Assembly: GCA_006218055.1 (NCBI GenBank)
Contig: VBWD01000024.1
Span: forward strand, 18,860 to 51,099
Length of the DNA: 32,240 nt
Direction: 5' to 3'
Origin: Gallionellaceae bacterium
Lineage (GTDB): Bacteria; Pseudomonadota; Gammaproteobacteria; Burkholderiales; Gallionellaceae
Below the pieces are notes generated by a model. The model was not told where the DNA came from. It ran no database searches and saw only the letters and a program-made list of their open reading frames with translations. Of this stretch, positions 3 through 32,240 are shown one piece after another. The number at the start of each line of letters is the position of its first letter. Within the stretch, counting starts at the first letter, position 1. The translations under genes were made by a program, and so were the position numbers.

Positions 3-3000
3 ATGAATGGAGGGCCGATGGTAATTGACCCAGTGACAGGCAAACCTATGCCTGCCCCTCCAGGGATGTACGGCGCACCTGCCATTGACCCCGCAACGGG
101 AATGCCGATGGCCCCCGCCCCCGGCATGTATGGGCCGCCAGGAACGCCAGGCATGTACGGCCCCCCTGCGATAGACCCAGTAACAGGATTGCCTATGGCG
201 CCAGCCCCCGGTATGTACGGCGGCGCGCCGATGCCCGGAATGCCAGGTGCATATGGCCCACCAGCGATTGACCCAGTAACAGGCATGCCGATGGCTCCCG
301 CGCCTGGCATGTATAACCCCGCTAACCCGACAGCAGGCGGGCCTGGAATGTCCGGTCCTCTAGGAACACCAGGTATGTACGGCCCCCCTGCGATAGACCC
401 GGCAACAGGAATGCCTATGGCTCCAGCCCCCGGTATGTATGGTGGCGCACCCATGCCTGGAATGCCCGGTGCGTATGGTCCCCCAGCGATCAATCCTGCG
501 ACAGGAATGCCGATGGCACCTGCTTCTGGAATGTATCCGCCAACCGCGCCCATGCCGGGATCTGCCACAGGCATGTACAACAACCCACCGATGCCGGGTG
601 GAATGTATCCACCTACAGCGGGCATGCCCTACAACGACCCATCCATGATGGGCGCTGGGCCTGGGATGTATGCACCTGCTCCGACGATGGGGATGTACAA
701 CCCACCGATGCCAGGGATGCCAGCCACAGGCATGTACAACAACCCGCCGATGCCTGGAGGTATGTACCCCACCGCGCCGGGTATGTCGTACAACGATCCC
801 ACCATGATGGGCGCAGGACCTGGAATGTATGCACCCGCGCCAACGATGGGGATGTACAACCCACCGATGCCCGGGATGCCAACCACAGGCATGTATAACA
901 ACCCACCGATGCCAGGAGGCATGTACCCGCCCGCACCGAGCATGAATTACAACGATCCAGCCATGATGGGCACCATGTATGGCGCCCCGATGACAGGGAT
1001 GTACAACACAGCGCCGATGCCCGGTATGCCTGCGACGAATATGTATGCACCGGTACCTGCGATGCTAGGCGGAATGTACACAAGTCCCACTATGACAAGC
1101 ATGTATAGCCCCGCAATGACGGGCACATGTGCTACGTGTTATGCCACCACTTACGTTGCCCAATACGGCTATGGCCCTGACGGCAACTTGTTGTCGGGAT
1201 ATGTCTTGGTGAATGGCATCCCAACGCTGCAAACCTCTGCTCGCTATGGCTATCAATTCGACTTCTATGGCATCGAGGTGTTGATGCCAGGGTTCGCAGT
1301 GGATATGTACGGCAACGCTTACCCCACCGGTGCGACATCGAAGTTCGGGTTCTATTCGGGTGGTACTTTGATGCCGGGTTATGCGATGGACTCATATGGC
1401 AATGCCTATCCGATGGGGAATCCACCGTCTTATGGGTACACCTATGACTACTACGGCAATCTCGTGTTGGCACCTGGGTTCACGCGGGACATGTATGGCA
1501 ATCCGGTGATGAATACTGCCACGACCATGGTTGGTTGGATTGGCGGAACTTGCGCGGGTTACTCTGCTCCGGGCGGGACATATTGCGATCCAGCTACCAA
1601 CACTTTCATGAGCGTCGGCGGCACGACTTATACCTTGGGCTGGGTCGGCGGCCCCTGTGCGGGATTCTCTACTCCAGCAGGCGCGACGTGTGACTTCACT
1701 ACCAACACCTTCGTGAATTCTGGTGCTGTAAGCACAGCGGTTGTAGGCACCATGTGTACTGGATACGGCATGGTTTCGGGCTCGTTGTACTGTAACGGCG
1801 CGACCTGGCAGATACCTACAGCAGGAATGGCTTGCTCTGGCGCTGCAACCGTGGGGTCTCTGTATTGTAACGGCGCGACTTGGATGACGCTGGCAGGAGG
1901 CGCCGCTTCGGGGACTGCTTGCTCAGTGGTGGGAACGGTGTCGGGTTCGCTATATTGCAATGGCGCAACCTGGTCTACTCCCGCCGTCGGCGGAGCTTGT
2001 AGCATCCCTGGCCTAAGTGTGGGTGGCTTCACTTGTTCGGGTGGGATGTGGTCGTATATGGGGACAACAGGGACGGCGGTAGTCGGAACGTCGTGTTACT
2101 CGGTCGGCTCTGTTTCGGGTTCACTATATTGTGATGGCTTGTATTGGATGTACCCAACTCAGGGTGGCTGGTGCACGGGAGCGGTTTCTGTAGGTGGTTT
2201 TGCTTGTGTGGCAAACATCTGGACGACAGGCGCGACTGCGGGCACATCATGCGGAGCAATGGGATCTGTTTCGGGCTCACTGTATTGTGATGGAGTCTCT
2301 TGGATCACGCCGGCAGTCAATCAATTCTGTTCAAGCCCAGGTACGGTCGTCGGGACATTCACCTGTTCTGGCGGGATGTGGACGTCCAATATGGCCATGA
2401 TAGGAGGTTCATGTGCGGGTGCGGGAACCGTGTCTGGGGTGTACACCTGTGATGGCACGCAGTGGGTGCAAGCAGGTACTTATTGCATGACCAATGGGGC
2501 GACTATCGGCGCGCTGACCTGCTCTTACAATTACTGGTCTTACTCGGGTGGTGCGATGGTGAACACCTATTGTGCAAGTCCGGGAATGACATCTGGATCG
2601 CTGTATTGTGATGGGTCGATGTGGGTCTATCCAGTGGCTAACAATTTCTGTAGTTCACCGGGGCTGGTCATCGGAAGCCTCACCTGCTCGAACGGGTATT
2701 GGTCATCGTCAGGTATGGCAGTTGCTGGTGGATCATGTGTAGGTTCGGGTATGGGGGCAGTGTCAGGCGCATTGACGTGTGATGGCGCAACGTGGATTCA
2801 GGCAGGCACATACTGTTATACCAATGGTATGACGGTTGGCGCTTTGACCTGCTCCGCGAATATTTGGACATCCTCTGGCGCTGCGGTAGCGAATACCGCT
2901 TGTGGGACACCGGGGGCGGTTTCGGGAACATTGTTCTGTGATGGAGCAATGTGGACTTCTCCGGTGGTAAACAGCTTCTGTAGTTATCCAGGGAAAGTGG

Positions 3001-4058
3001 TGGGTAGCTTGATGTGTTCTGGAGGATTCTGGACGATGACTGGGGGAGGTGCCATTTATGGGGGCGCATGTTCAGTGGCGGGTAGCACCTCGGGGACGTT
3101 GTACTGCAACGGATCCACATGGGAAACGCCTTATTGGGGCGGCCCCTGCACAGGCTCTGCAGGCGTGATGAATATGGTGTGTAACGGTACACAATGGACG
3201 ACGCCGACATATGGGACACCAGGAATACCTAACCTAGCCTTCCCAACGATACATAACACTCCACCAGTCAATGGCATGTACGATGCTTTTGAGGTTGATG
3301 TATCGATTCCGGCAAGCTACAAAAACATCGGCTATATGTATAACTTGGGAGGTGCAAATTCTTTCGAGATTGCTTTGAACAATACGGCGACTACTCTGCT
3401 CGACATGTATGGAGCGTTGAGTTCTTTCCAAGCGCCCTCGGTAGGGGGGGCATCAAGTGTGAACGTCATCCAACTGGATCAGGGAACTGCGGTGCCATTC
3501 GATATGGGGTCAGACCCTATGACTGGGATGTCTTGGGGTCGTTGGCAGGGTGGGAACGTCAATCTCACAGTATTGCCAGGTACTGCGACGCCCACTGCAC
3601 AAACAGGTAGCTTGCACTGGTTCTCTACGGGTATGCAGACGCAGGCAGTGACCTTGCCAGTAACAGGTACGTGGAATTACGCATTGATTGGAAATACCAG
3701 CCCGACTGATAACACGGGCGTAGTGGGGACGCTTAACAATGCGACCTTTAATGCGAACTTCTCGACACAAACTGTGAATGTCGGTGTGAGCGTGAGCATG
3801 CCCGCATCGAGCGCTTCGTCAGCGATGCCAGTGACACTTAATGCGAATGCAAGCAATGTGTCGATATTGGCTGGAGGTAACTTCAAGACGGTCATACCGA
3901 CGGTTTCTTGTACAGGGTCGGGATGCTTTTCACCAACAGGTAGCGGAGTCATCGGTGGTCAATTCTCTGCTCCGACAGGGCAAGGGGTGGGTGTCGGTTA
4001 CGGCTTAGTGAATGGCGGGCAGACTGTTAATGGTACAGCGGTCTTTAAGCAACAGTGA
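3..4058 (+). CDS. Giant repeat-containing, Cys-rich secreted/surface protein (5' partial)
   Basis: The reading frame is open to the left edge, so the true start and any signal peptide lie outside the window; 1351 residues are visible. Four regions follow each other. Residues 1-370 are rich in Met, Pro, Gly and Tyr and built from repeats around GMY and IDPxTGxPM. Residues 385-505 hold about three YG-rich units ending in DMYGNAYP. Residues 510-1070 hold 20 modules of about 27 residues, each with two cysteines and most ending in Trp (pattern GxxC-x(8-12)-C(D/N)GxxW). Residues 1075-1351 are non-repetitive and resemble, from memory, the C-terminal beta-barrel-like domain of some betaproteobacterial FecR-domain surface proteins. 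Forty regularly paired cysteines imply disulfides and an extracytoplasmic location; this is inference. I do not recognise the full protein. The following PPIase gene is probably co-transcribed. Confidence 0.85.
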   Translation: MNGGPMVIDPVTGKPMPAPPGMYGAPAIDPATGMPMAPAPGMYGPPGTPGMYGPPAIDPVTGLPMAPAPGMYGGAPMPGMPGAYGPPAIDPVTGMPMAPAPGMYNPANPTAGGPGMSGPLGTPGMYGPPAIDPATGMPMAPAPGMYGGAPMPGMPGAYGPPAINPATGMPMAPASGMYPPTAPMPGSATGMYNNPPMPGGMYPPTAGMPYNDPSMMGAGPGMYAPAPTMGMYNPPMPGMPATGMYNNPPMPGGMYPTAPGMSYNDPTMMGAGPGMYAPAPTMGMYNPPMPGMPTTGMYNNPPMPGGMYPPAPSMNYNDPAMMGTMYGAPMTGMYNTAPMPGMPATNMYAPVPAMLGGMYTSPTMTSMYSPAMTGTCATCYATTYVAQYGYGPDGNLLSGYVLVNGIPTLQTSARYGYQFDFYGIEVLMPGFAVDMYGNAYPTGATSKFGFYSGGTLMPGYAMDSYGNAYPMGNPPSYGYTYDYYGNLVLAPGFTRDMYGNPVMNTATTMVGWIGGTCAGYSAPGGTYCDPATNTFMSVGGTTYTLGWVGGPCAGFSTPAGATCDFTTNTFVNSGAVSTAVVGTMCTGYGMVSGSLYCNGATWQIPTAGMACSGAATVGSLYCNGATWMTLAGGAASGTACSVVGTVSGSLYCNGATWSTPAVGGACSIPGLSVGGFTCSGGMWSYMGTTGTAVVGTSCYSVGSVSGSLYCDGLYWMYPTQGGWCTGAVSVGGFACVANIWTTGATAGTSCGAMGSVSGSLYCDGVSWITPAVNQFCSSPGTVVGTFTCSGGMWTSNMAMIGGSCAGAGTVSGVYTCDGTQWVQAGTYCMTNGATIGALTCSYNYWSYSGGAMVNTYCASPGMTSGSLYCDGSMWVYPVANNFCSSPGLVIGSLTCSNGYWSSSGMAVAGGSCVGSGMGAVSGALTCDGATWIQAGTYCYTNGMTVGALTCSANIWTSSGAAVANTACGTPGAVSGTLFCDGAMWTSPVVNSFCSYPGKVVGSLMCSGGFWTMTGGGAIYGGACSVAGSTSGTLYCNGSTWETPYWGGPCTGSAGVMNMVCNGTQWTTPTYGTPGIPNLAFPTIHNTPPVNGMYDAFEVDVSIPASYKNIGYMYNLGGANSFEIALNNTATTLLDMYGALSSFQAPSVGGASSVNVIQLDQGTAVPFDMGSDPMTGMSWGRWQGGNVNLTVLPGTATPTAQTGSLHWFSTGMQTQAVTLPVTGTWNYALIGNTSPTDNTGVVGTLNNATFNANFSTQTVNVGVSVSMPASSASSAMPVTLNANASNVSILAGGNFKTVIPTVSCTGSGCFSPTGSGVIGGQFSAPTGQGVGVGYGLVNGGQTVNGTAVFKQQ
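20..530 (+). repeat. Coding repeats, six IDPxTGxPMxPAxGMY units
   Basis: Six degenerate in-frame copies of a unit translated as (A/V)I(D/N)P(V/A)TGxPMAPAPGMYG lie in the first gene, separated by spacers of variable length that often contain GTPGMYGPP or GAPMPGMPGAYG. The copies differ mostly at third positions, so they look old or under selection at the protein level. Confidence 0.8.
564..1040 (+). repeat. Tandem coding repeat, 159-bp period
   Basis: Copies begin near 564, 723 and 882, exactly 159 bases (53 codons) apart. Each encodes TGMYNNPPMPGGMYP, then YNDPxMMGAGPGMY and APAPTMGMYNPPMPGMP. The first two copies are nearly identical in protein; the third loses the middle part. Such a period can expand and contract by recombination without breaking the frame. 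Confidence 0.85.
1530..3210 (+). repeat. About 20 two-cysteine protein modules
   Basis: Counting by eye gives 20 successive modules, each with a pair of cysteines 8-13 residues apart, usually followed by (D/N/S)GxxW. Two flavours tend to alternate, one with VSGSLYCDG and one with VGxxTCSGGxW, suggesting that the array grew by duplicating a two-module (about 54-residue) block. The third to fifth modules share the ending CNGATW. Confidence 0.8.
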
Positions 4059-4086: not shown

Positions 4087-4860
4087 ATGAAAAGAAACTT
4101 GATCGGGTTGTTCATCTTGTTGGGGTTATTCCAGGCGCGAGTGGCATGCGCGGAAGAGGCGGTGCTGAAAGTCAATGGTGTCGCTATCCCGCAGGTGCGT
4201 ATCGACATGCGTGCGAAAGCTAGCGGTCACGCTGACACTGCAGAGCTGAGAAAAATAGTTCGCGATGAGATGATCATTCTTGAAGTGATCGCTCAAGAAG
4301 CGGTGCGCTTGGGGTTGAACAAAAATTCAGAGGCTGCACAGCAGATCGAGTTGGCCAAGATGTCAGTGTTGAGCAGTCTTTTTGTTCAGGATTACGTGAA
4401 GAATCATCCGGTCACTGACAGCCAGATCAAGCAGGAATACGAGCGAGTCAAACCCTCATATAGCGGTACTGAATACAACGTTCGCCATATCTTGCTGGCG
4501 ACCGAAAAGGAAGCCAAGGAGGTGCTGGCGCTATTGGCCAAAGGCGGCAGTTTTGAAAAACTAGCCACCGAGAAATCGAAAGATGCCAATTCTGCTGCGC
4601 GTGGCGGCTCGTTGGGGTGGGCTCTGCCGAGTGTGTTTGTGCCGCAGATCGCCAGTGCATTGCTGATCCTGGAAAAAGGCGGCTACACCCAAGAACCGGT
4701 GCAATCTCAAATGGGGTGGCATGTGATTCGTCTTGACGATGTGCGGGAGCGCAAAGCGCCGAGTTTGGAAGAGCTTAAGCCGCAGATACAGCAGCGCCTG
4801 CAGCAGCTATCTTTGCATAAGGCCATGGGAGACCTCCGAGCCAAAGCCAAGATAGAGTGA
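4087..4860 (+). CDS. Periplasmic PpiC/parvulin-type peptidyl-prolyl isomerase
   Basis: The 257-residue protein starts with a signal peptide (MKRNLIGLF...ACAEE, cleavage near residue 22), has a helical chaperone-like N-terminal segment, then a single parvulin domain at about residues 132-228. That domain shows YNVRHILLATE, the GGSLGW motif and GWHVIRLDD, all typical of PpiC/PrsA/SurA-type rotamases. It catalyses cis-trans isomerisation of Xaa-Pro bonds in the periplasm. The start is fixed by GGAGGT at 4077-4082, four bases before ATG. It lies 28 bases after the proline-rich repeat protein and before a terminator, so the two probably share a transcript and the isomerase may help fold that protein (inference). 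It is shorter than SurA, with one parvulin domain rather than two. Confidence 0.9.
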   Translation: MKRNLIGLFILLGLFQARVACAEEAVLKVNGVAIPQVRIDMRAKASGHADTAELRKIVRDEMIILEVIAQEAVRLGLNKNSEAAQQIELAKMSVLSSLFVQDYVKNHPVTDSQIKQEYERVKPSYSGTEYNVRHILLATEKEAKEVLALLAKGGSFEKLATEKSKDANSAARGGSLGWALPSVFVPQIASALLILEKGGYTQEPVQSQMGWHVIRLDDVRERKAPSLEELKPQIQQRLQQLSLHKAMGDLRAKAKIE

Positions 4861-9285: not shown

Positions 9286-9495
9286 ATGAACGCAGAACGT
9301 ATTGTCCGCATCGTCGCCGGTTTTTTCATCTTGCTGTCTTTGGCATTGGGCGTTGAAGCCAGCCCTGTATTCGTCAGCAGCTATTTCTTGTTCTTCACGG
9401 CATTCGTTGGTTTGAACTTGTTCCAAAGTGGGTTCACACAGATATGCCCGTTGAATGGCATCCTCGCTCGTTTCGGTGTCAAAGGCAGTTGCTAA
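9286..9495 (+). CDS. DUF2892 (YgaP-like transmembrane domain) small membrane protein
   Basis: The 69-residue protein has two hydrophobic segments (about residues 8-24 and 28-48) and the family's C-terminal signature, here QICPLNGILARFGV, after an N-terminal NAERIVRIVAG. This domain is the membrane anchor of rhodanese YgaP in E. coli and often occurs alone next to sulfur-handling genes. Its function alone is not known. A rhodanese with its own membrane segment is encoded two genes downstream. The gene end overlaps the start of the glycosyl ligase gene. Confidence 0.85.
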   Translation: MNAERIVRIVAGFFILLSLALGVEASPVFVSSYFLFFTAFVGLNLFQSGFTQICPLNGILARFGVKGSC

Positions 9496-11282
9496 AAAAA
9501 TATCGCCCCCTTTCGTTTAATTTCGCCCACATCAGTTTGGCCTTCGTTGGCCTGATGTGGGTTTTGCCTTTTCTGAATTACAACCACGCGTTCCCCATCA
9601 CGACCTTCTATCAAGAGTGGAGTGCCGCCTTGCTGGGCATGTGCGCGCTCCCTTTGCTGTTGACGGCGCGTTATTGGCAAGCACCCCATGTGCCGCGCAT
9701 CGTGCTGTTGCCGATAGGGCTGCTGATGGTGATGTTGGTGCAGTTTTTGATAGGGCGCGTCTCTCACTTCGATCATCTGTTGTTGCTTTCCCTCTATTTC
9801 CTGTTTGCTGCGCTACTGATGATGTTGGGGCAGCGACTGCGTGAAGAGTTGGGGTTGTCACTGGTGGTGACGGTGCTCGCCGTTTTCGTTCTGATCGGCT
9901 CCGAATTGAATACCTTGGCGGGAATGCTGCAGCACTATCGTTGGGATACCTTCCTGAACTCGGTCGTCACCGTCAAGACCTCCAATGCGGTCTATGGCAA
10001 CACGGCGCAGCCGAACCACTATGCAAACTACATCGCGCTAGGCTTGTTGTCTCTGGGATTCCTGCATGCGAAACGTCTCCTGCGTATGTGGCAAACCATC
10101 GTTCTGGCTACGCCTCTGCTCTTTGTGTTGGTGCTTTCCGGTTCTCGCAGCGCTTGGCTCTATCTGACATTTGCGCTCGCACTTTCATGGTTGTGGCAGC
10201 GCAGGGATGTCTCGTTGCGTCCGGTGATGTTCTTTTCTCTGGCTGTCTGGTTGGGCTTCCTTGTGATGCATTTTGTGGTTCAGCTACCTTTTTTGGAAGG
10301 GGCCACAGGCAGTATCACTTCTGCGGAGCGGCTGTTCGGTGAGGTAGGCGGAGGCAGTATCCGTTTCCATCTTTGGCGTGAAGGTTGGCTGATCTTTGCG
10401 CAGTTCCCTCTGTTGGGTGCAGGCTTCGGCCAGTTCGCTTATGAGCATCTGCTGCTTGGATCGGAGTTGCAGAATCCATCTATCACGGGCCTTTACAACA
10501 ATGCCCACAACATCGTTCTGCAAGTGGCTGCTGAAGCAGGGCTTGCGGGCTTGGCCGTTCTGTTGGGCAGCTTGGGAATGTGGTTCTGGCAATCAGTCGT
10601 GCGCAAGACACAGTTCGATATCGAACATTGGTGGGCATACGGGGTGCTTGCCGTTATCGCCATCCATAGCCAATTGGAATATCCACTCTGGTATCTCTAT
10701 TTCATCGGCATCGCCGCGATACTGATAGGGTTGATCGACAAGACGAGCTATCGTTTGGAACTAAGAACGGTGGGTCGCCTATCGGTCGGCGTTATCCTAT
10801 TGTTGGGGGCGATGTCATTGGTGCAAGCGTTCCAAGGTTATAAACATCTTGAGGAAGCACTGCAACTCAGAATGGCGGCAAGCAAAGACCCCAAATACAT
10901 CCCTGCGGCACGTGACGAGTTGTTGGTGGCCTATCGCTATCCTTTGTTGAGTTCTTATGCCGAGTTGTTCATTGCCAACATGATGGATCCCAGCGCGGAT
11001 CATCTGAAGGAGAAGCTCGAGCTGAATGAGCGCGCACTGCGCTACATTCCCAACTCCACGGTTGTTTACCACCAAGCGTTGTTCTTGGTGTGGACGGATC
11101 GCCCCGAGGAAGCCAAGACGATGATCGCCGATGCGATTTGGGCCTATCCCTATGAGTGGGCTGTCGTCAAGACCGAGTTCGATCAGTTGGTGAAGCTAGA
11201 TTCAGTCCGCTTCGGCCCTCTGTTAGAATTCGCCACCCAAAAATACGAGGAGTACCAGCGTGCTGCAGTTCCTGGAAAATAA
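9489..11282 (+). CDS. PglL/Wzy-family O-oligosaccharyltransferase or O-antigen ligase
   Basis: A polytopic inner-membrane protein of about 597 residues with some 10-12 helices. The PglL_A-type motif is visible as NAVYGNTAQPNHYANY, followed by the Wzy_C region (LSGSRSAWLYL, then the large periplasmic loop with GAGFGQFAYEH and NAHNIVLQ, then HSQLEYPLWYLYF), which contains the conserved His/Arg/Glu positions of lipid-linked glycan ligases. The soluble C-terminal part resembles the Wzy_C_2 extension found in PglL proteins. It would move a glycan from undecaprenyl diphosphate to Ser/Thr of exported proteins such as pilins, or to lipid A core. Start: TTG at 9489 gives MLKKYRPLSF just before the first helix and overlaps the DUF2892 stop; ATG at 9444 is also in frame but would add a polar stretch overlapping DUF2892 by 52 bases. 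Confidence 0.85.
   Translation: MLKKYRPLSFNFAHISLAFVGLMWVLPFLNYNHAFPITTFYQEWSAALLGMCALPLLLTARYWQAPHVPRIVLLPIGLLMVMLVQFLIGRVSHFDHLLLLSLYFLFAALLMMLGQRLREELGLSLVVTVLAVFVLIGSELNTLAGMLQHYRWDTFLNSVVTVKTSNAVYGNTAQPNHYANYIALGLLSLGFLHAKRLLRMWQTIVLATPLLFVLVLSGSRSAWLYLTFALALSWLWQRRDVSLRPVMFFSLAVWLGFLVMHFVVQLPFLEGATGSITSAERLFGEVGGGSIRFHLWREGWLIFAQFPLLGAGFGQFAYEHLLLGSELQNPSITGLYNNAHNIVLQVAAEAGLAGLAVLLGSLGMWFWQSVVRKTQFDIEHWWAYGVLAVIAIHSQLEYPLWYLYFIGIAAILIGLIDKTSYRLELRTVGRLSVGVILLLGAMSLVQAFQGYKHLEEALQLRMAASKDPKYIPAARDELLVAYRYPLLSSYAELFIANMMDPSADHLKEKLELNERALRYIPNSTVVYHQALFLVWTDRPEEAKTMIADAIWAYPYEWAVVKTEFDQLVKLDSVRFGPLLEFATQKYEEYQRAAVPGK
11224..11252 (+). promoter_or_regulatory. -10-like TAGAATTCGC and ribosome-binding site before the rhodanese gene
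   Basis: TAGAAT at 11224-11229 lies 36 bases before the GTG start, inside the end of the ligase gene; a weak TTCAGT is 17 bases upstream. GAGGAG at 11247-11252 is a strong ribosome-binding site that supports the GTG start. Confidence 0.4.
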
Positions 11283-14620: not shown

Positions 14621-14692
14621 CAGGAAACGGGAAAACGGCTAACTTCCGCTCCGATTGTTTGGTTGTGGTGCATTAATACTTCAGGGGGAATT

Positions 14693-16385
14693 ATGGCGCG
14701 TCCGGAAAAAGTTCGCTTGGGCGACTTGCTGGTACAGCACGCTCGATCAGTTGCAATTCGTGCTTGAACAGCAGAAACGCACGGGTCGCAAGCTGGGTCG
14801 AGTTTTGGTGGACAACGGTTTCATCACCGAAGATCAGATCTCTGAGACGCTGGCCAAGCAGCTCAGCATCCCCTACATCAACCTCAAGTACTACAACCCC
14901 AACCTGGAGATCGTGCGGCGCTTGCCCGAAAATCAAGCACGCCGTTTCCGCGCCATCGCACTTGAGGAGCGCAACGGCGCTTTGCTCATCGGGATGACTG
15001 ATCCTACCGACCTGTTCGCATTCGACGAGATCTCGCGCATCCTCAAGCGCGACATCGATGTGGCCGTGGTCACCGAGGGGCAGCTGCTCGAAACAATTGA
15101 CCGTGTGTACCGCCGTACTGACGAGATCAGCGGTCTGGCAAAAGAGATATCAGAGGATTTGGGCGAGGGTTACATCGACTTCGGCGCGCTGAGCGATACT
15201 GTCGGCACCGAAGAGGCGCCGGTAGTGAAACTGTTGCAAACCATGTTCGAAGATGCCGCGCAGGTCGGCGCATCCGACGTTCACATCGAACCTCAGGAAA
15301 CACGCTTGCAGATCCGCTTCCGTATCGACGGCGCGTTGCATCTGCAAACTGAAGCAGACAGCAAGATCGCCGGATCCATCGCCTTGCGTTTGAAGCTGAT
15401 GTCCGGACTCGACATCTCGGAAAAACGTCTGCCGCAGGATGGTCGTTTCAACATCCGCGTACGCGATCAGGCCGTGGATGTGCGTATCTCCACCATGCCC
15501 ACCCAATACGGCGAATCCGTGGTCATGCGTCTGCTCAACCAGAGCGGCAGCTTCCTCTCCCTCGACAAACTCGGCATGCCGCCGGATATGCTCAAGCGCT
15601 TCCGCGAGATCATCCAGCGCAGCAACGGCATGGTGCTGGTCACCGGCCCCACGGGTTCGGGAAAAACGACCACGCTGTATGCAGGCCTGGCCGAGATCAA
15701 CACCATCGATCAAAAGATCATCACCGTAGAAGACCCTGTCGAATATCGTTTACCCGGCATCAATCAAGTACAGGTGAACGAAAAGATCGATCTTACTTTC
15801 TCCAAAGTGTTGCGTTCCGCTTTGCGCCAAGACCCGGATGTCATTCTCATCGGCGAAATGCGCGATGCGGAAACAGCGCAGATCGGTATGCGTGCCGCGA
15901 TGACGGGTCACTTGGTGTTCTCCACCCTGCACACGCGCGATTCGAGCGGTACCTTGTTCCGTTTGGTGGACATGAATGTGCCTAAATACATGGTGGCCTC
16001 CTCGGTACAGGCTGTGCTGGCACAGCGGCTACTACGCCGTGTGTGCGAAAGCTGCAGCGAGGTGCATCAACCGACACCGCAAGAAGTCGAATGGCTGGAA
16101 TCGGAAGGTGTGGCGCGTGGCGCGTGGGGTAATTTGATGCATGGACGCGGTTGTTCACATTGCAACGGTACGGGGTATCACGGACGTATGGGCGTCTATG
16201 AGATGTTGGAAATGACCCAAGACCTGGTGGATGCAGCGGCACATGAAGACAACACCCACTTTATGCAGGCCGCGCGCAATTACCTAAAAGGCAAGACATT
16301 GATCGATGGCGCGCTGAACGAGATGAAATTGGGACACACCAGCATTGCCGAGGTTATGCGCATCAGTAACCAGGTCGAGGACTAA
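14693..16385 (+). CDS. mshE: MSHA pilus extension ATPase MshE (frameshifted near 14738)
   Basis: A GspE/PilB-type hexameric ATPase. The N-terminal MshEN domain is followed by an ATPase domain with Walker A GPTGSGKTT (near 15645), Walker B DPDVILIGEMRD (near 15832), an intervening SDVHIEP Asp box and a four-cysteine zinc motif CESC...CSHC (near 16049-16161). The natural start is ATG 14693, after AGGGGG at 14683-14688, and reads MARPEKVRLGDLLVQH. This frame stops at 14767; the homologous sequence resumes as TLDQLQFVLEQQ in the frame that runs to 16385. The switch is at 14735-14741. An ORF beginning at 14655 in the second frame exists, but its first 29 codons are not MshE-like. As read, the gene is broken unless this is a sequence error. 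Confidence 0.85.
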
Positions 16386-23404: not shown

Positions 23405-23630
23405 TTCGTAGCTGTGGTTGTGCATGGATCATTTTCCGTCGTCGAACCGACGTGGATGTTCAAGTTTCGTCAATGGCGCTACAACAATAAAGCACAGCAG
23501 CCAGCCTGGGATTGTCCAAGGAGTCGTGATTTCGGTGGTTCGGTTCTTGCTGTGTTTCTTGTGACAACCACAAAGCAAAGTCCTCATGCATATATGAGGT
23601 GGCAGTAGTTAAGTGTTGCGGAGAAATATC
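23405..23630 (+). other. Gap between mshP and mshQ
   Basis: 226 bases without a convincing gene. A 64-codon frame at 23414-23608 starts with GTG and lacks family resemblance. CCTCAT (23582-23587) and ATGAGG (23594-23599) form a small dyad shortly before mshQ. GGAG at 23619-23622 is the ribosome-binding site of mshQ. I see no clear terminator, so mshQ may or may not share the mshP transcript. Confidence 0.5.
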
Positions 23631-26600
23631 ATGGTCAAAACGATGGGCATCTATTTGAGTGGCGTGATCGCATTGTTGGCGATCGGCATGGCACAGGCCG
23701 CGCCCTATTTTGTTGCGGCAGGTACGGCCCGCAACGGGACTGGTGCGGTCACCGTCTCGTGGCCGGCACACGTGACTGACGATGTCGCCCTACTGTTCGT
23801 TGAAAGTGCGGGCGGCCAGCCGGTGACGCTTTCCACTCCATCCGGTTTCGTGCAGGTCACGAACAGCCCCCAAGCGACAGGCGCGGGCACAGCGGGAACC
23901 CAACTTAGCGTTTATTGGGCGCGCGCCACTTCGGCGGCGATGCCTTCCGTGGTGGTGGCAGATCCGGGAGATCACGTTTATGCCCGCATCATCACCTATC
24001 GCGGTGTGATCAACAGTGGCAATCCGTGGGATGTGACAGGCGGGGGCGTCAAGGCCGTTGCCGGCACGACTGTCACCGTGGCCGGAGTCACCACTACTGC
24101 TGCGGATACGTTGATCGTGCAGGCGGTCGCACGCAGCAACGATTCCTCTGCCGCAGCCTTCAGTGCCGAGACGAATGCGAGTCTGGTAGGTATAGGTGAG
24201 CGTTCCGACGGCGGCACCACATCGGGCAATGGGGGAGGTTTTGCGGTGTGGGATGGTTCGTTGATGCTTGCCGGTGCCAGCGGAAACACCACGGCCACAG
24301 TCACCAGCTCGATCAACGCGTTCTTCACGATTGCCTTGAAACCGGCGCCCGGAACGGGAAGTGTGACGGCAAGTCCGTCCAGTTGTGTGAATGTGGCGGG
24401 TATCGGCACCTTGCCGTGGGCGACCACTGCCAATGCGATCTCCAGCAACAATGCATTCTCCACGATATCGCTCAATGACGGTCAGGTGAGCAACTACCTG
24501 CGCTGTACGGGTTATGGTTTCGCTATTCCGGCGGGAGCCACCATCACCGGCATCGTCGTTAACGTCGAGCGCAAGGCATCCAGCACCAACAGCATCCGCG
24601 ACGCGGCGATGCGTCTGGTCAAAGAGGTGGCGGGTGCTCCGGTCATTCAAACTCCTGATCGTTCCACGCTCACCAACTACACCACGGCGGATGTGGTCGA
24701 GGCGCATGGCGGCGCTGCCGACTTGTGGGGTGGCGCATGGACGCCTGCAGATATCAACTCCACCAACTTCGGTGCGGCTGTTGCCTCGCAGAAACCGGGC
24801 ACGGCGGGCGGTGCGCGCACGGTGAGCGTCGATCACATGTCGGTCACGGTGCGTTACACCACCAGCCTGCTGCATCATGTGAGTATCTCTGCGCCGACGA
24901 ATGAGATGTCTTTGACCGAGGTTCCGGTAGTCATCACACCACACACAATTTCACACGGGGCGATCACGGCAGTGGGCACGCTCAGTCTTTCCACCAGTAC
25001 GGGCACCGGGGATTGGGTGATCGGCACCGGCACCGGTATTTTGACTCCGGGTGCCGCGAACAGTGGCTTGGCCAGCTATACCTTCGGTGCGGCGGAGAGT
25101 TCCGTCACATTGGGTTTCATCTCTCAGGCGGGAGGGACGGTGACGTTGAACGTGGCTGATTCGGGCGGAGCCGATATGTTGTTGAACACGCCACTAGCGG
25201 AAAAAGCCAATACCATCACCTTTACGCCGGCCGCCTTTGCTTTTACCAATAGCGCATGTACCCATAACGTCGCATTCGGCACGCCAGGGCAGTGTGCTTT
25301 GGTGACCTGGACTCCGCGCACGGCGGGGTTGTCCTTATCCGGGATATATATCACCTCGGTGAATACCGCAGGTGTTCCGACGCGTTTGCATCCAACTCAG
25401 GTAAGGACGCGCAACATGCAGTTCGGTGCGTCTTGCCACAACCCGGTAGCCAACGCGGGTGTACGGGCGACTTTCTCGGCTACGGCGGCCTTATTGCCGT
25501 TGTGTCAGTCCAACGGCGCGACACCGACCACATGGACTGCCGGTGTCGACCTTTCTTTTGCCGGTGGTAGCACCTCTGTCGGGCCATACAGCTTCAATTA
25601 TGACGACGTGGGCCAAGTCGAAATCCAGATGCGCAACAGCGCGGCCACCATGGAAACCGGCGGAAGTGGCGCGTTCGTCGTAAAACCGGCCGATTTCGTG
25701 CTGTCAGCCATCAAACGCAGCAGTGACAACTTTCCGAATCCAGCAGCCGCGAATGCTGGCGGAACGGCTTTCGTGAAAGCGGGAGAGGCGTTCTCGGTGA
25801 CGGTGATGGCAGTGAATGCCGGCGGCACGGCCACCCCGAACTATGGAAAAGAGACGAGTGCGGAAAGCGTCAAGTTGAACCCCGCTTTGGTGACGGGCTT
25901 GGGTCTGACCAACAACCCGGCGGTAGCCGGCGGCTTTGGGGTGTTCGCTGGCGGGGTGGCCACAGGTGCCGCATTCGAGTGGGACGAAGTGGGCATCATC
26001 ACGCTGACACCCAGTGTGGGCGATGGCAGTTATTTGGGGGCGGGCGATGTCACGGGTACGACCAGCGGTAATGTCGGGCGATTCAGTCTGGGTAAATTCG
26101 CTTTGCAGAACATCACCTTCGATGAACGCGCCGACCTGTGCCAAAACGGTTTCCTCGTGGCGGATGGCGTGACCCCTTGCGCTTCCACCTTCACTTACAT
26201 GGGGGAGCGGATCGATGCGAATTTCACGCTGGCACCTGCGAGCCTCAATGGTGCGTTGGTGCACAACTATGTGGATTCAGCGACCGTTGCCAATGATTTT
26301 GCCAAGCTCGATCCGAGCACCTTTGCCAATTTGAATATAGCCGCGGTGGATAGAGCCACGGTGGGCGGACCGTACTTCCTGACGGCGCGCGTATCCAACA
26401 GCGGTATGCCGGCCGCAACCTGTGCGACCGTGCTTTGCTTTGAGGCCGGTAGCGCAATAGTCACCGTGCCCTTCACCTTCAGCCGTAATGTTGCCCCCGA
26501 CGGGGCTTATGCCGCGGTAGGAATCGGTATCGCGCCTGTCGACAGTGATGGTGCCCGTGTGGAGGGGGTAGGTGCCGTGCCAGGTCTGTGCAACAACCCG

Positions 26601-27044
26601 AATGCGGTGGATTGTTACGACTTGGATAGCGATGCCTTGATCGGCAACGACCGGGCGCTGTTGGGTACCGGCGAATTCCGCCATGGCCGTACACGCATCG
26701 CCAATAGTCACGGCTCGGAACTGTTGGCGCTGACACTACCCGTCGCAATGGAATACTGGAATGGCGCGACATTCACCGCGAGTGCCGACGACAGCCTGTC
26801 CGTGGTCGCGGTCGCACTGGGCAATTACCAGCGCAACCTGAACGCCGGAGAGACGATCCTCTCAATGTCCGCCATCATCGGCGGTCTGGGGCGGATCGGC
26901 CTGTCCGCACCGGGCGCGGGCAATAACGGGAGTGTGGATGTCACGGTGACGTCGCCCGGCTATCTGCCGGGCAACACCGGGCGCGCCACCTTTGGTGTGT
27001 ACAAGGGAAGTACCGAGTTCATTTACCTGCATGAAGCGTACTGA
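23631..27044 (+). CDS. mshQ: MshQ-like large secreted adhesin with DUF6701 C-terminus
   Basis: 1137 residues from ATG 23631, with GGAG eight bases upstream; GTG 23613 is a less likely start. A signal peptide ends near MAQA|APYF. Beta-rich repeats follow. The C-terminal half is DUF6701: a Cys-containing region (SACTHNVAFGTPGQCALVTWTPR), then DEVGxx-type strands (YNFD-like YSFNYDDVGQVEIQMRN), a PFTFSRNVAPDG block, FRHGRTRIANSHGSELLALTLP, MEYWNGATFT and the very end TFGVYKGSTEFIYLHEAY. This end is characteristic of MSHA biogenesis protein MshQ. The usual Cys after DDS is absent (DDSLS). In other pili, large proteins of this kind act as tip adhesins; that role is inference. Confidence 0.9.
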   Translation: MVKTMGIYLSGVIALLAIGMAQAAPYFVAAGTARNGTGAVTVSWPAHVTDDVALLFVESAGGQPVTLSTPSGFVQVTNSPQATGAGTAGTQLSVYWARATSAAMPSVVVADPGDHVYARIITYRGVINSGNPWDVTGGGVKAVAGTTVTVAGVTTTAADTLIVQAVARSNDSSAAAFSAETNASLVGIGERSDGGTTSGNGGGFAVWDGSLMLAGASGNTTATVTSSINAFFTIALKPAPGTGSVTASPSSCVNVAGIGTLPWATTANAISSNNAFSTISLNDGQVSNYLRCTGYGFAIPAGATITGIVVNVERKASSTNSIRDAAMRLVKEVAGAPVIQTPDRSTLTNYTTADVVEAHGGAADLWGGAWTPADINSTNFGAAVASQKPGTAGGARTVSVDHMSVTVRYTTSLLHHVSISAPTNEMSLTEVPVVITPHTISHGAITAVGTLSLSTSTGTGDWVIGTGTGILTPGAANSGLASYTFGAAESSVTLGFISQAGGTVTLNVADSGGADMLLNTPLAEKANTITFTPAAFAFTNSACTHNVAFGTPGQCALVTWTPRTAGLSLSGIYITSVNTAGVPTRLHPTQVRTRNMQFGASCHNPVANAGVRATFSATAALLPLCQSNGATPTTWTAGVDLSFAGGSTSVGPYSFNYDDVGQVEIQMRNSAATMETGGSGAFVVKPADFVLSAIKRSSDNFPNPAAANAGGTAFVKAGEAFSVTVMAVNAGGTATPNYGKETSAESVKLNPALVTGLGLTNNPAVAGGFGVFAGGVATGAAFEWDEVGIITLTPSVGDGSYLGAGDVTGTTSGNVGRFSLGKFALQNITFDERADLCQNGFLVADGVTPCASTFTYMGERIDANFTLAPASLNGALVHNYVDSATVANDFAKLDPSTFANLNIAAVDRATVGGPYFLTARVSNSGMPAATCATVLCFEAGSAIVTVPFTFSRNVAPDGAYAAVGIGIAPVDSDGARVEGVGAVPGLCNNPNAVDCYDLDSDALIGNDRALLGTGEFRHGRTRIANSHGSELLALTLPVAMEYWNGATFTASADDSLSVVAVALGNYQRNLNAGETILSMSAIIGGLGRIGLSAPGAGNNGSVDVTVTSPGYLPGNTGRATFGVYKGSTEFIYLHEAY

Positions 27045-27423: not shown

Positions 27424-28260
27424 ATGGACAAGCTAATCAAAATCATTCTGTTGACGTTGTCGATATTCGGGTGTTTCCCGCAGTTGGCGTTCGCCGACTA
27501 CGTGGGTGAAGTGCAGACCACAAAATACCTCGATCAACAAACAATCAATATGATTTCAAGTCGCTTGCAATCGGGGCAGGCGGGTTTGCAGGTGGGGGAT
27601 GAGGTTTCTTACTTCATTCAATTCACGCCAACTGACAACGGCGGCATCATCGGGGCGGGCGGCTACGTTACCGACTACATCCCTGCGGGCACGCAAGTCG
27701 TCAATGCGCAATTTGTGCAATTGAATGGGGATGGCACGTTCTCGCAAATTGCTCCTCCCCCTCCCGCTGAGGTCATGGCGGCTTACGTGCCGGGGGTATC
27801 CGATACCGGTATCTTCTTTTCCACTGATCCAAGAACGGCGCAGTACACCAATCCAGCCAGCCCGACGATCTCATCGGTCAACGGCTACCCCGCCATGGGC
27901 GGTATGACTACCCACAATTTTTGGGATAAGGAAATGACTCGGGTCTATTCGCCTGCGGCGCGAATCGCGACCGTGGGTTGTCCGCTCATATCGCCTTGGG
28001 TGGCGACGATGGGTGCCGGGCCAGTGGCCGGGCGCGACACGGTGCTGCAAAACGACTATACCGGCGGAACCGGGCCATGGCAGCGCATCAGTTACCCGGG
28101 CTCCTATTTTGGCTGCGGGACGCGTCACGGTAGGCGAATTGTTCTCGGTGCGCATCACACTGAAAATAACTCAACCTATACCGACCAATGGCTTGATCAA
28201 CAACACCGAGGTGTTCGGCGGCGACACCAGCATCAAAGCGCCGGGCGCTTTGATCGGTAA
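27424..28260 (+). CDS. N-terminal fragment of giant DUF11-repeat secreted protein (frameshifted)
   Basis: The first about 230 codons belong to a secreted protein: signal peptide MDKLIKIILLTLSIF...LAFA|DYVG, then an N-terminal domain with VGDEVSYFIQFTPTDNGG and GPWQRISYPGSYFG. After about 28110 the frame turns into basic low-complexity sequence (RHGRRIVLG...HRGVRRRHQHQ), while the natural continuation, GRVTVGELFSVRITLKITQP, is in the +1-shifted frame. AGGGGA before ATG 27424 is a good ribosome-binding site. Together with the next feature it forms one gene. Confidence 0.8.
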   Translation: MDKLIKIILLTLSIFGCFPQLAFADYVGEVQTTKYLDQQTINMISSRLQSGQAGLQVGDEVSYFIQFTPTDNGGIIGAGGYVTDYIPAGTQVVNAQFVQLNGDGTFSQIAPPPPAEVMAAYVPGVSDTGIFFSTDPRTAQYTNPASPTISSVNGYPAMGGMTTHNFWDKEMTRVYSPAARIATVGCPLISPWVATMGAGPVAGRDTVLQNDYTGGTGPWQRISYPGSYFGCGTRHGRRIVLGAHHTENNSTYTDQWLDQQHRGVRRRHQHQSAGRFDR

Positions 28261-31200
28261 AGACGTAGTGTGGAAATATCACATCCCCAACGTTGCCAAT
28301 GCCGATACGACATTGACGTTGATCAAACGTGTGGTGGGGATGTGCACCGGCGTGGGTTGTGTGCCGCAGCCATTCTCAGGCGGTGCGGTGCCTGCGCTGC
28401 CGAATCTTAAATTGCGCTATGAAGTACTTTACCTGAACAGTAGCGGAGGCCCGCAAACTGCGGTAACGCTTTCCGATACTTTACCCCCGGGATCGGCTTT
28501 GGTTGCGGGATCAGAAGCGGTGGTGACGGGTCCCAATATTTTGCCTACGACAGCCGTTGCCGGCGGATTTAGCTTTCAGACTTTGGCTTCTCTCGGCTCC
28601 GGCAGTGGTGGCACAGTGAGATTTGATGTCAATGTCGCTGCACCTGCGGTAAAAACAGCTATTAGCAACATAGCCAAACTGGTCAGTTTGTCTCTGCCGG
28701 GCGGCGTGCAATCGGTTGCAACGGTCAGTCCCACCAATACGGCGAGTCTGGCACTTAATATCTCTACCTCTACACCTACTAGCGCTCCGGGCGGTACAGC
28801 AACCTACAGCGTCAGCCTGTCCAACAACGGTGCAGCAGGTGCAACACTGGGGCCTCTTGCAGCCGATGGTGGTGTGGTTCATACATTACCAAGTTCAGGC
28901 GTAACGTTACCGGCTGAACGGTTCACCTTCCAACAACCCGCAGTCGGGGCGATGTGTGGTGTCACACTGCTGGCGATGAATCAAGCTTGCGGTGTGCTGA
29001 CAACCCCGGGTGTTGGTGTGGCACCCGCGACGCTAAGTTATGTGGTGATGGCGGTAACTGGTGCCGGCGTGGCTGCTGTTGCGCCATCGCCTTACGCCGG
29101 TCAGAACCGAGAACAATTGACCTTTAAACCGACGGCGCTGACCACTATCCCGATTGGCGGCAAATTGGATATTACTTTCAATGCCGGTGTCGGGCTGAAT
29201 GTGGCTTCATCCACTGTAGGCTATACCAGCGATGATGTGGTGACCTACGGCGGTGGATTCGTGACTGCACCCGGCCTCACTACAATCAGTACCAGCGGTG
29301 TCGCACCGGTTAAGGTGGACATTCCGTTGAGTGTCAGTATCGCAATCGATTGCGTATATTCCGGCGTGGCATGCGTCGCTTATACCGGCGGTAGCATCCC
29401 GTCTAATAGCAAGATCAAGTATCGCCTCAACTACAGCAATACTGGAGCCGATCAGACTAACGTCGTCTTGATCAATACCTTGCCGACTAACACCTCGTTC
29501 GTTGCGGGCTCGGCATCCGGGGCGGTTCAGCCGACCACACTTGGACAAGTGATGACCTTTCCGACGATCCCTACTTTGTTGAGCGGGGCTACGGGGGCGG
29601 TGACATTTGATGTTCTATTGAGTCCGCTGGTGTTGAGCGGCACATATTTGACCGATACCGCCAATATCAAGAGTGATGCCTATGCCGGGGGCGCAAGCAG
29701 CAGTCTGACCACCACCGTCAATGACAGCGCCAATCTGACGGTCACTCAAACCACTTCAACGCCCACGCTGGTGAAATGTACCGCAGTGAATATACCCGCA
29801 GGCTGCGGCCAAGCCAGCTATCGCATTACCGTCACCAATAATGGCAACACGGGGGCGGGCAATATCGTCGTCAACGAGTTATTGCCGTTCACCGGGACAT
29901 TGGCCGATATAACCAAACGATTTAATTTCACTGCGGCATCCACCGTGATTTCTGGGATGGCTGCTGTAGCCCCCACACCAGTTGGCCCGCCTCCCACAAT
30001 GCCGGGCTACACGACCAATCTAAATCAGCAACAGATGGTTTGGACTTTCACTGGGCAAACCCTTGCTCCAGGTGCCACATTGACCATCGACTACAAAGCA
30101 GATGCAGGCACTGGTTTGGCAGCGGGTAATGCCGTGTACACCAGCAGCGCGATCGTGAATTACACCGCAGGGCCCTTGGTGGGCTCAACAGCCCTGACAG
30201 CGGCAGCGTTGAACACTGCGCCCGTGACAATCCCCACCAATTTGGTGGTGACCACATCCATTGATTGTGTCTATGACGTCTTGGGAGCTTGCAATGCGTA
30301 CACAGGAACAGGCGTGATTCCGACGGCGGCGAAAGTGCGTTACAAAATGCACTATCAAAATACCTCGGCATCCGCCAAGGACAGTGTGTACTTGTGCGGT
30401 CAGCTTACTTCCAGCATTGCGCCTGCGTTGACGGCCACCTTTACAACCCCCACTGTTGCGCCTACCCCTGTGGGCCCTTTTACCAATATCCCCGCCTTGG
30501 CATTGCCAGTGGCGCCCGTCCCTGCGGCTGTGGCAGCCTGCGGATTCGTTGCGCCGATCGCGCCCACAACGGCGGTGACCTTCAACTACCCAGTCATTGC
30601 GACGCTGGCAGCAGGGGCAAGTGGTGATGTGTATTTCGATGCGCTGACCAATGGTACTGCCGGAGCCACGCTTACGTTAAACGGTGCGATGGTTGTTTCT
30701 GCGCTAGCGGCGGGACCTTATACCGAAAGAGAAACTTCATCGACCGCAGTCTTTGTGCAAAACGCACCCGTGTTGAGCATCACAAAGGCAACCACTACCC
30801 CCGGTCGCAAGCCGGGTGAAATCGCGACCTACAGCATCACCATCAAAAACACCGGCAATGTCGCCACCACTTCGCTCAAGGTGTATGACTTCTTGCCATT
30901 TAGCGGGACTACGGTGGATCCGAACAAACGGTTTACTTGGACTGCGAACGGTACGATTAGCTGTTTGCCTGCGGTAGGATGCCCCGCATTGCCAGCACCT
31001 GCGGTGGTGGTGCCCCCAGCCTTCTTGCCTTTTAGTAACAGCCCCAATCAGCAGCAAGTATTGTGGGACTTTGGCGGCTACGCTTTGGCAGCAGGTTCGA
31101 CCGTGACCTTTACCTTTACCGCCACAGCGGGTGCGCCAGAGAGCTCGCCTACTTTCTTGCCTGCGGGAAACTACAACAACTCGGTCAAAGCAGATTTCAC

Positions 31201-32240
31201 TTATTTGCAAGGCTTGGCTACTTTGTCCGGCAGTTATAGCAAGGATTTCACTGACATAGCGGATCGCATCGTGGTCGCCACTGCTTTGGCGGATATTGTG
31301 TTGACCAATAGCAATGGTGTGACATCAGTCGCAGCGGCCACATCGACCACATATAGCATCGTAGTGACCAACAATGGCCCAGATTCGGTTAGCGGCACAG
31401 TATTGAAAGTGCCAGTGGCTACCGGACTTAACAAGACTGCAGTGTCTTGCACCTCAGCCAATTTCAGTTGTCCTATCGTTACAACAATTGCGGCATTGGA
31501 GGGGGCGGGTATCACTTTGAGTCCTCTTAATTTAGGTCAAAGTGCCACGATTACGGTGACTGCGGATGTCACAGCGCTGAGCGGAACTGTAACTTCAACT
31601 GCAACGGTTGTGTTGCCAGCAGGCATGATGGATAGCACACCCAGCACACCACTGACCGTAAGCGATGCCGACAACGTGGTGGTACCCGATTTGTCGACTT
31701 CAACCCTCACTGTGGTCGATGGTAACGGCGGTTCGCACGAGTCTCTCGATGTGATGACCTATACCGTGACATTGACGGAATCAGCGGGTGTGGCAGCGGC
31801 GAATGTGACAGTGACTGCGCCAATTCCGGCAAATACGACATCCTTAACGGTGGTAGGCACATTGCCTGCGGGCGCTTCACTTTGCCCGACCAACTCGACG
31901 ACTAATTTTGCGATTTGCGGGGTATCCGTTCCCGCGAACGGCTCGATCATATTGAAATACAGCGTGGTGATCAGCAATGCTCCCGCCCCTGCGGTGGGCA
32001 CGCTGATTAGTAGCACCGCAACCATTCAAGTACCTAGTGGTATCGGTGGCACACCTACCACCAGTTTCACGGTGGGCACACCTGCTACCAATGGCATGAA
32101 GGCCTTGTATCTGTATGGGTCGGATGCGGCAACAGGGTTGGTTGCATGTGCCGCAGCCGTGCCTTGCAAAATGTCTCGAACTGCCACGCCCGTGACTGCT
32201 CCTTCCAATACGGTTATTTCGATACCTAGAAATACGTTGG
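28112..32240 (+). CDS. Continuation of DUF11-repeat surface protein (frame-shifted, 3' partial)
   Basis: About 1376 codons are open from the frameshift region to the right edge without a stop; I checked each codon. This frame is already open from 27908. The protein is a chain of DUF11-like beta-sandwich modules, recognised by repeats of YxxxVxNxG followed by xxDxLP: LRYEVLYLNSSGG...LSDTLPPG, IKYRLNYSNTGAD...LINTLP, YRITVTNNGNTG...NELLPF, YSITIKNTGNVA...YDFLPF, YSIVVTNNGPDS. A larger block of about 310-340 residues is duplicated (IDCVY at about 29347 and 30268; KRFNF at 29911 and KRFTW at 30928). It lies directly after the mshQ region and is probably a surface adhesin; no anchor is visible because the end is missing. 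Confidence 0.8.

Follow-up and report, generated by a model that had tools for sequence, protein, structure and literature searches.

Cargo of the type XI secretion system (T11SS), which is exported by Slam proteins and includes TbpB, LbpB, fHbp and hemophilin, is described in two studies as combining a C-terminal barrel that directs secretion with an N-terminal part that varies (PMC8406197; PMC12282271), and the verified T11SS/Slam exporters are reported all to come from an animal-associated cluster (PMC12282271). Other surface proteins are held from the periplasm: N-terminal retention modules with this function in adhesins were, according to PMC13090378, first described in an adhesin of Marinomonas primoryensis. 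Here we analyze a long open reading frame (ORF) at the left end of the window, the whole 32,240-nucleotide stretch of Gallionellaceae DNA under study (G000:C3:18860-51099, where G000 is the source genome; L-numbers denote loci and G-numbers genomes). Our best overall reading, to which we give a probability of about 0.65, is that the gene encodes a surface protein exported by a T11SS (Slam), with its barrel as export signal, an array of cysteine pairs as stalk and a FecR domain as possible anchor.

Like T11SS/Slam cargo, the protein and its relatives have a C-terminal lobe of the same predicted fold, an adjoining Slam-type exporter, a Sec signal (signal peptides were judged by eye throughout) and a variable N-terminal part. 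The family differs from such cargo in carrying FecR in place of the lipid anchor, swapped Cys stalks and up to seven lobes per protein, in lacking a match to Pfam TbpB_B_D, and in coming from environmental metagenome-assembled genomes (MAGs) labeled as beta-/gammaproteobacterial. With LapA-type adhesins it shares a small beta domain of similar fold at the N terminus, a long repeat stalk and a C-terminal export signal, whereas export here would proceed by T11SS and not by a type I secretion system (T1SS), the FecR fold is longer, the retention_LapA cut-off is not reached and a LapG partner is absent as a rule. The Sphingomonas and Psychrobacter multi-TbpBBD proteins with Pro-Thr(-Asp) repeats likewise have a repeat-rich N terminus, more than one C-terminal-type lobe and a Slam partner, but FecR is absent from the main text that describes them and Cys modules go unmentioned in the passages concerned (PMC12282271). 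The word 'FecR' occurs 0 times in the main text of both PMC8406197 and PMC12282271, and FecR-headed T11SS cargo was not found in the literature searched, a scope that left most subscription papers and all supplements outside. The architecture is new: its parts are recognizable, and their combination was not found described.

A predicted T11SS cargo lobe behind a Slam-like exporter

The initial annotation assigned the protein to no known family while calling its C terminus barrel-like; the latter point is borne out and the former is not supported. An AlphaFold2 (AF2) model of amino acids (aa) 800-1351 (predicted local distance difference test, pLDDT, 82.3; predicted TM-score 0.60) returned 63 Foldseek rows at E <= 0.001, led by 7rea (E 1.1e-5), and the best 50 of these 63 are all hemophilin, TbpB, LbpB or fHbp entries, counting as TbpB two rows that are chain B of TbpA-TbpB-transferrin complexes. 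VIA, whose alignments lie mainly over model residues 292-552, gave the same folds plus NHBA and HpuA in its best 50 rows (Z 11.0-13.6). At the sequence level, profile A2 matched hemophilin 8gm3 (E 0.0092), and NF041636, the model for Slam-dependent surface lipoproteins (slam_lipo), matched 2 of 17 lobe members (best 1.6e-6), with L038 scoring 26.9 bits where the cut-off is 80. The C-terminal ~260 aa are therefore best described as a predicted lobe of hemophilin/TbpB/fHbp type, with an eight-stranded barrel, that would act as the T11SS cargo export domain. An assignment to the MrkD receptor-binding domain (E 0.0032; 17.7 bits versus 27) was rejected, as a slightly shorter stretch gave no match. 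Of 100 genomes, 17 carry the C-terminal domain, source genome included. By profile search, carriers number 49 among 158 genomes of the family and 6 among 398 sampled across the phylum, and both counts include the source genome. One ORF of 2867 aa (L083:2-8605) holds seven barrel lobes.

Gene linkage was surveyed for 70 barrel ORFs from 69 loci. A Slam-like gene lies within 600 base pairs (bp) upstream on the same strand for 58 of them; the remaining 12 comprise 11 that start <=242 bases from the edge of a contig and one second copy in tandem. At L079:4430-9398, two FecR-barrel genes stand in tandem behind a single Slam-like gene. A second set of 16 loci, partly the same records (e.g., L024 = L052), has a Slam-like neighbor in 15 (14 upstream and one, L037, downstream), the sixteenth being cut at a contig end. 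SlipAM (PF04575) matches 26 of 30 Slam-like members at E <= 0.01 (best 4e-12) and TPR_Slam 10 of the 30 at the same threshold. The source genome has one strong Slam-like gene, namely the one beside this cargo, and a second match (E 4.8e-6) that covers the tetratricopeptide repeat (TPR) part only. Because its C terminus models as a hemophilin/TbpB/fHbp fold and its gene lies behind a Slam-like exporter, we take the window protein to be T11SS (Slam)-type cargo and strongly infer its export from this modeled fold and linkage. The extracellular role suggested for it initially holds to the extent that fold and Slam linkage indicate an exported, probably surface-located protein.

The gene most likely begins upstream of the window

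A run of 47 N (C3:18813-18859) directly precedes the window, and the frame of the window ORF is open into this gap. The 5' end that was missing from the initial annotation can be sought on the other side, where an ORF runs into the gap from upstream (G000:C3:18098-18812; L002:9239-9953) and encodes a signal peptide, then a FecR domain (PF04773, 36 bits, cut-off 24), then (PGQ)n. A 482-aa gene for TPR and an outer-membrane barrel (L002:7770-9218) ends 20 bases 5' of it. In the nearest relative, a Gallionellaceae MAG (G047, WSYA01000019; L024/L052), FecR, GMY head, Cys modules and barrel form one 932-aa ORF, within an uninterrupted order of Slam-like gene, this ORF and PpiC. Because this relative carries the same order in one ORF, both ORFs most likely belong to a single gene that spans the gap, has the window ORF as its 3' part and starts with the FecR-domain ORF, 762 bases upstream. 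A complete gene starting with the ATG at 3 was rejected, because the frame stays open up to the run of N and the ORF of the relative extends into FecR.

If there were instead two genes, with a FecR ORF that stops within the gap and a window ORF that encodes a separate protein from its own start, the differing frames of the two ORFs as assembled would be explained, and L068, L070 and L074 offer natural examples of such a FecR/cargo split. The frame comparison is uninformative, however, because 47 N need not match the real length of the gap. In the nearest relative a single ORF holds these parts in this order, and the sequence after the ATG at 3 lacks a signal peptide, whereas both halves of the natural splits appear to have one. 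We regard two genes as extremely improbable and treat the locus below as a single gene.

Exchangeable putative Cys stalks and a low-charge head

The Met/Pro/Tyr repeat head noted at the outset is evident from aa 1-375, which hold 94 Pro, 65 Met, 65 Gly and 28 Tyr, with 20 copies of GMY and six of I[DN]PxTGxPM. YGNAYP, listed as a further repeat, has two exact copies, the other unit being a variant (YGNPV, at aa 498). The window protein is nearly uncharged, with K+R+E+D at 3.1% versus a median of 10.2% in 65 related ORFs >500 aa, Cys-rich relatives included. Of its 44 Cys, 40 form 20 pairs in aa 505-1075. The proposed count of 20 modules thus stands, but not a closing Trp in each: C-x(9-13)-C-x4-W fits 18 of the 20 pairs (mean 0.18 and maximum 3 in 2000 shuffles of the region), and the first two pairs (C517/C528 and C552/C563) are a second type without it. 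Most type II modules alternate in pairs about 49 aa long.

A profile search, the check first proposed for the modules, matched no known repeat family: there was no meaningful match in Pfam, in NCBIfam or among PDB sequences (queried with the module sequence), and no module in the phages or plasmids searched. PilV-shufflon, sushi and other known Cys repeats, which were considered as candidates, found no profile support, and PDB rows for IgE receptor aligned only 12-13 residues and were taken as chance.

Close relatives carry three module types. Type II occurs in the window, L052 and L059, that is, in 2 of 158 family genomes (those of the window and G047) and 1 of 300 order genomes (the source genome), L059 being known from the 69-locus set only. 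Type I is found in L054, L055, L065, the first two window pairs and one module of L059, and type III (CVAPxVWNGxxC-like) in L053, L056, L057 and L058. A barrel tree with 14 rows puts type III in two places: L053 groups with L057 (100/100), and L056 and L058 fall inside a 99/98 set with the type I carriers L054 and L055. Judging from these sequences, stalk types are swapped between relatives.

GMY-type heads are visible in 3 of the 70 ORFs (L052, L054 and L065), several heads of this set being cut off at contig edges. All three have PpiC <=75 bp downstream, as has the window, at 28 bp; among the other 67 ORFs, three (two at L079 and one at L087) have PpiC downstream, 61 to 1772 bp away. Low-complexity parts of relatives match OCRE, CXCXC and BA14K.

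FecR as a possible anchor

FecR was found in the ORFs of all 16 relatives of the 16-locus set (16/16) and in 59 of the 70 barrel ORFs. Of the other 11, eight are cut at contig edges and three have a separate FecR ORF between Slam and cargo (L068, L070 and L074), which stops one base 5' of the cargo start (L068, L070) or overlaps the cargo (L074). Each half apparently has its own signal peptide in these split loci, and the cargo of L068 and L070 keeps residues resembling distal FecR strands; the FecR fold appears to be split between two secreted proteins. L037 has NGIGGTG repeats between signal peptide and FecR, so that FecR is not always right at the front, and L053 (23) and L057 (23.5) score just below the PF04773 cut-off. 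A lipobox-like motif occurs in 2 of the 59 FecR ORFs, two others of which start inside FecR and are uninformative, and none was seen in the source genome's own FecR ORF.

The structure model of FecR (pLDDT 90.8) aligned in VIA with FecR/PupR domains at Z 15.4-15.9 (PDB matches 4m0n and 6ovk) and with 5ix9, a 'cell surface anchoring domain', at Z 9.9 over 73/76 residues (2.3 A; next row 4.7). The latter entry, presumably derived from an RTX adhesin, was also matched by Foldseek (E 0.012) and by the FecR sequence profile (2.6e-5). The retention model NF033682 gave 27.3 bits in member 1 versus a cut-off of 50, and 50 of 57 domains matched it at E <= 0.001. Position, lack of lipid and fold, a likeness that is not family-specific, make FecR a possible periplasmic anchor, a role we propose tentatively and at slightly less than even odds.

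The same VIA matches could suggest that FecR serves as a sensor arm in the periplasm, on the model of FecR/PupR signaling, and reports contact or ligand binding by the surface part; a PF04773 score above the cut-off and Z near 15 are features that it shares with such domains. The window gene differs from them in that FecR is fused to exported cargo and is led into by a signal peptide, with no anti-sigma domain, membrane helix or other transmembrane segment seen before it. No sigma factor or TonB transducer was found among the 10 window proteins scanned, a subset of the window ORFs, or, by eye, among the upstream ORFs. We consider a sensor arm very improbable.

A stronger competitor is that the cargo is fully released, FecR included, in the manner of hemophilin, to act as an extracellular matrix or as a metal or haem binder, with FecR not anchoring. 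Soluble, non-lipidated T11SS cargo is known (PMC8406197). Hemophilins are among the closest folds, FecR is split off at L068, L070 and L074, and models of the Leptospira surface adhesins Lsa33 and LipL45 match 54/57 and 48/57 FecR domains, the member shown lying below the cut-off. The His of SLHW (aa 1205) is invariant in 12/12 aligned C-terminal lobes, and a ligand site for metal or haem in the lobe is therefore possible. On the other hand, the window protein has just 2 His in 1351 aa, and FecR stands in or beside every sufficiently long locus (16/16; 59 + 3 of 62), unlike in the single-lobe hemophilin. Full release thus seems unlikely to us, and we retain a surface protein with FecR as its possible anchor.

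Several results weigh against this reading or parts of it. For the lobe, none of the 17 members tested matched Pfam TbpB_B_D at E <= 0.1, and the wider profile A5 gave no related match in the PDB, unlike the narrower A2; for the exporter, the source genome's own Slam-like protein reaches 18.3 bits on SlipAM, below the cut-off of 22. That this is a single protein is short of certain, as the join across the 47-N gap is inferred. For the anchor, FecR is separate from the cargo in L068, L070 and L074, so that not all cargo could be anchored covalently; the source genome's own FecR domain alone, searched without a profile, gave no 5ix9 match; and a barrel-less FecR protein of the same genome (L124) scores alike on the retention model (2e-6), its single-sequence search giving no 5ix9 match. 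Retention likeness was accordingly rejected as specific proof. L038:554-2698, tried as a second control, had no retention match, but Pfam identifies it as DUF6600, not FecR. A LapG-type protease (PF06035) was not found in the source genome, a weak negative as the genome is 71% complete, and occurs in 9 of 61 genomes, including 1 of 12 carriers of the C-terminal domain; with such proteases mostly absent, LapG-regulated release is unsupported.

Table 1. Regions of the window ORF, its downstream neighbor and the split FecR ORFs
Feature	Position	Strand	Details
Most likely 3' part of FecR-head-Cys-barrel gene	3..4058	+	1351 aa + stop, single open frame
Head rich in Met/Pro/Gly/Tyr, low charge, GMY and I[DN]PxTGxPM repeats	3..1127	+	aa 1-375
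CATC- and YGN[AP]x-containing linker	1128..1535	+	aa 376-511
Type I Cys modules x2, WIGGTCAGYSAP-like	1536..1742	+	aa 512-580; type also in L054, L055, L065
Type II Cys modules x18, GxxCxxxGxVSGxLYCxGxxW	1743..3212	+	aa 581-1070
C-terminal lobe, predicted hemophilin/TbpB/fHbp fold	3273..4055	+	aa 1091-1351; AF2 model, Foldseek, VIA
Barrel proper within the C-terminal lobe			about aa 1215-1351
PpiC-type prolyl isomerase	4087..4860	+	28 bp 3' of window ORF
Split FecR ORF	L068:3957-4397		
Split FecR ORF	L070:4291-4731		
Split FecR ORF	L074:2446-2913		

Elsewhere in the window, a Wzy_C/Wzy_C_2 protein with a PglL_A motif (9444-11282), an O-antigen or protein glycosylation ligase, is followed by a rhodanese gene. 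A 1143-aa DUF6701 protein (23613-27044) is encoded downstream of an MshEN/T2SSE ATPase gene (14655-16385), a stretch that we take to resemble an MSH-type pilus locus. A large protein with four DUF11 stretches (28013-32239) runs past the window end.

Discussion

We propose that the protein would leave the cytoplasm by Sec export via the N-terminal signal peptide of the upstream ORF. The Slam-like TPR and barrel protein would then recognize the C-terminal lobe in the periplasm and lead the cargo across the outer membrane, a step suggested by the fold and by a gene linkage that is nearly invariant. Outside the cell, the Cys-pair array, with presumably ~20 local disulfides, would form an extended stalk together with the low-charge Pro/Met/Tyr head, while the PpiC isomerase encoded downstream probably aids folding of the Pro-rich head. 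FecR, following the signal peptide, might stay folded in the periplasm and tether the chain, replacing the lipid anchor of classical cargo; we hold this step with the same reserve as the anchor itself. As to the use of the surface tip, attachment or cell-cell or mineral contact is likeliest, which is a guess.

More speculatively still, and short of an even chance, the family may represent a T11SS retention system in which Slam-type pores display non-lipidated giant proteins and an N-terminal FecR serves as a folded periplasmic stop, in parallel to LapA in T1SS. Stalks in such a system would be exchangeable and disulfide-stapled, and three loci would carry the FecR anchor as a split partner.

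The host belongs to the Gallionellaceae, likely an iron-oxidizer lineage, in agreement with the iron-oxidizer-like host that the initial annotation had supposed. T11SS/Slam biology would thereby reach free-living bacteria of an iron-oxidizer family, and Slam together with FecR cargo would provide a large, uniform two-gene set for testing export and anchoring. The architecture suggests a way for lipid-free cargo to remain at the surface, with small Cys-repeat modules as stalks that evolution may exchange.

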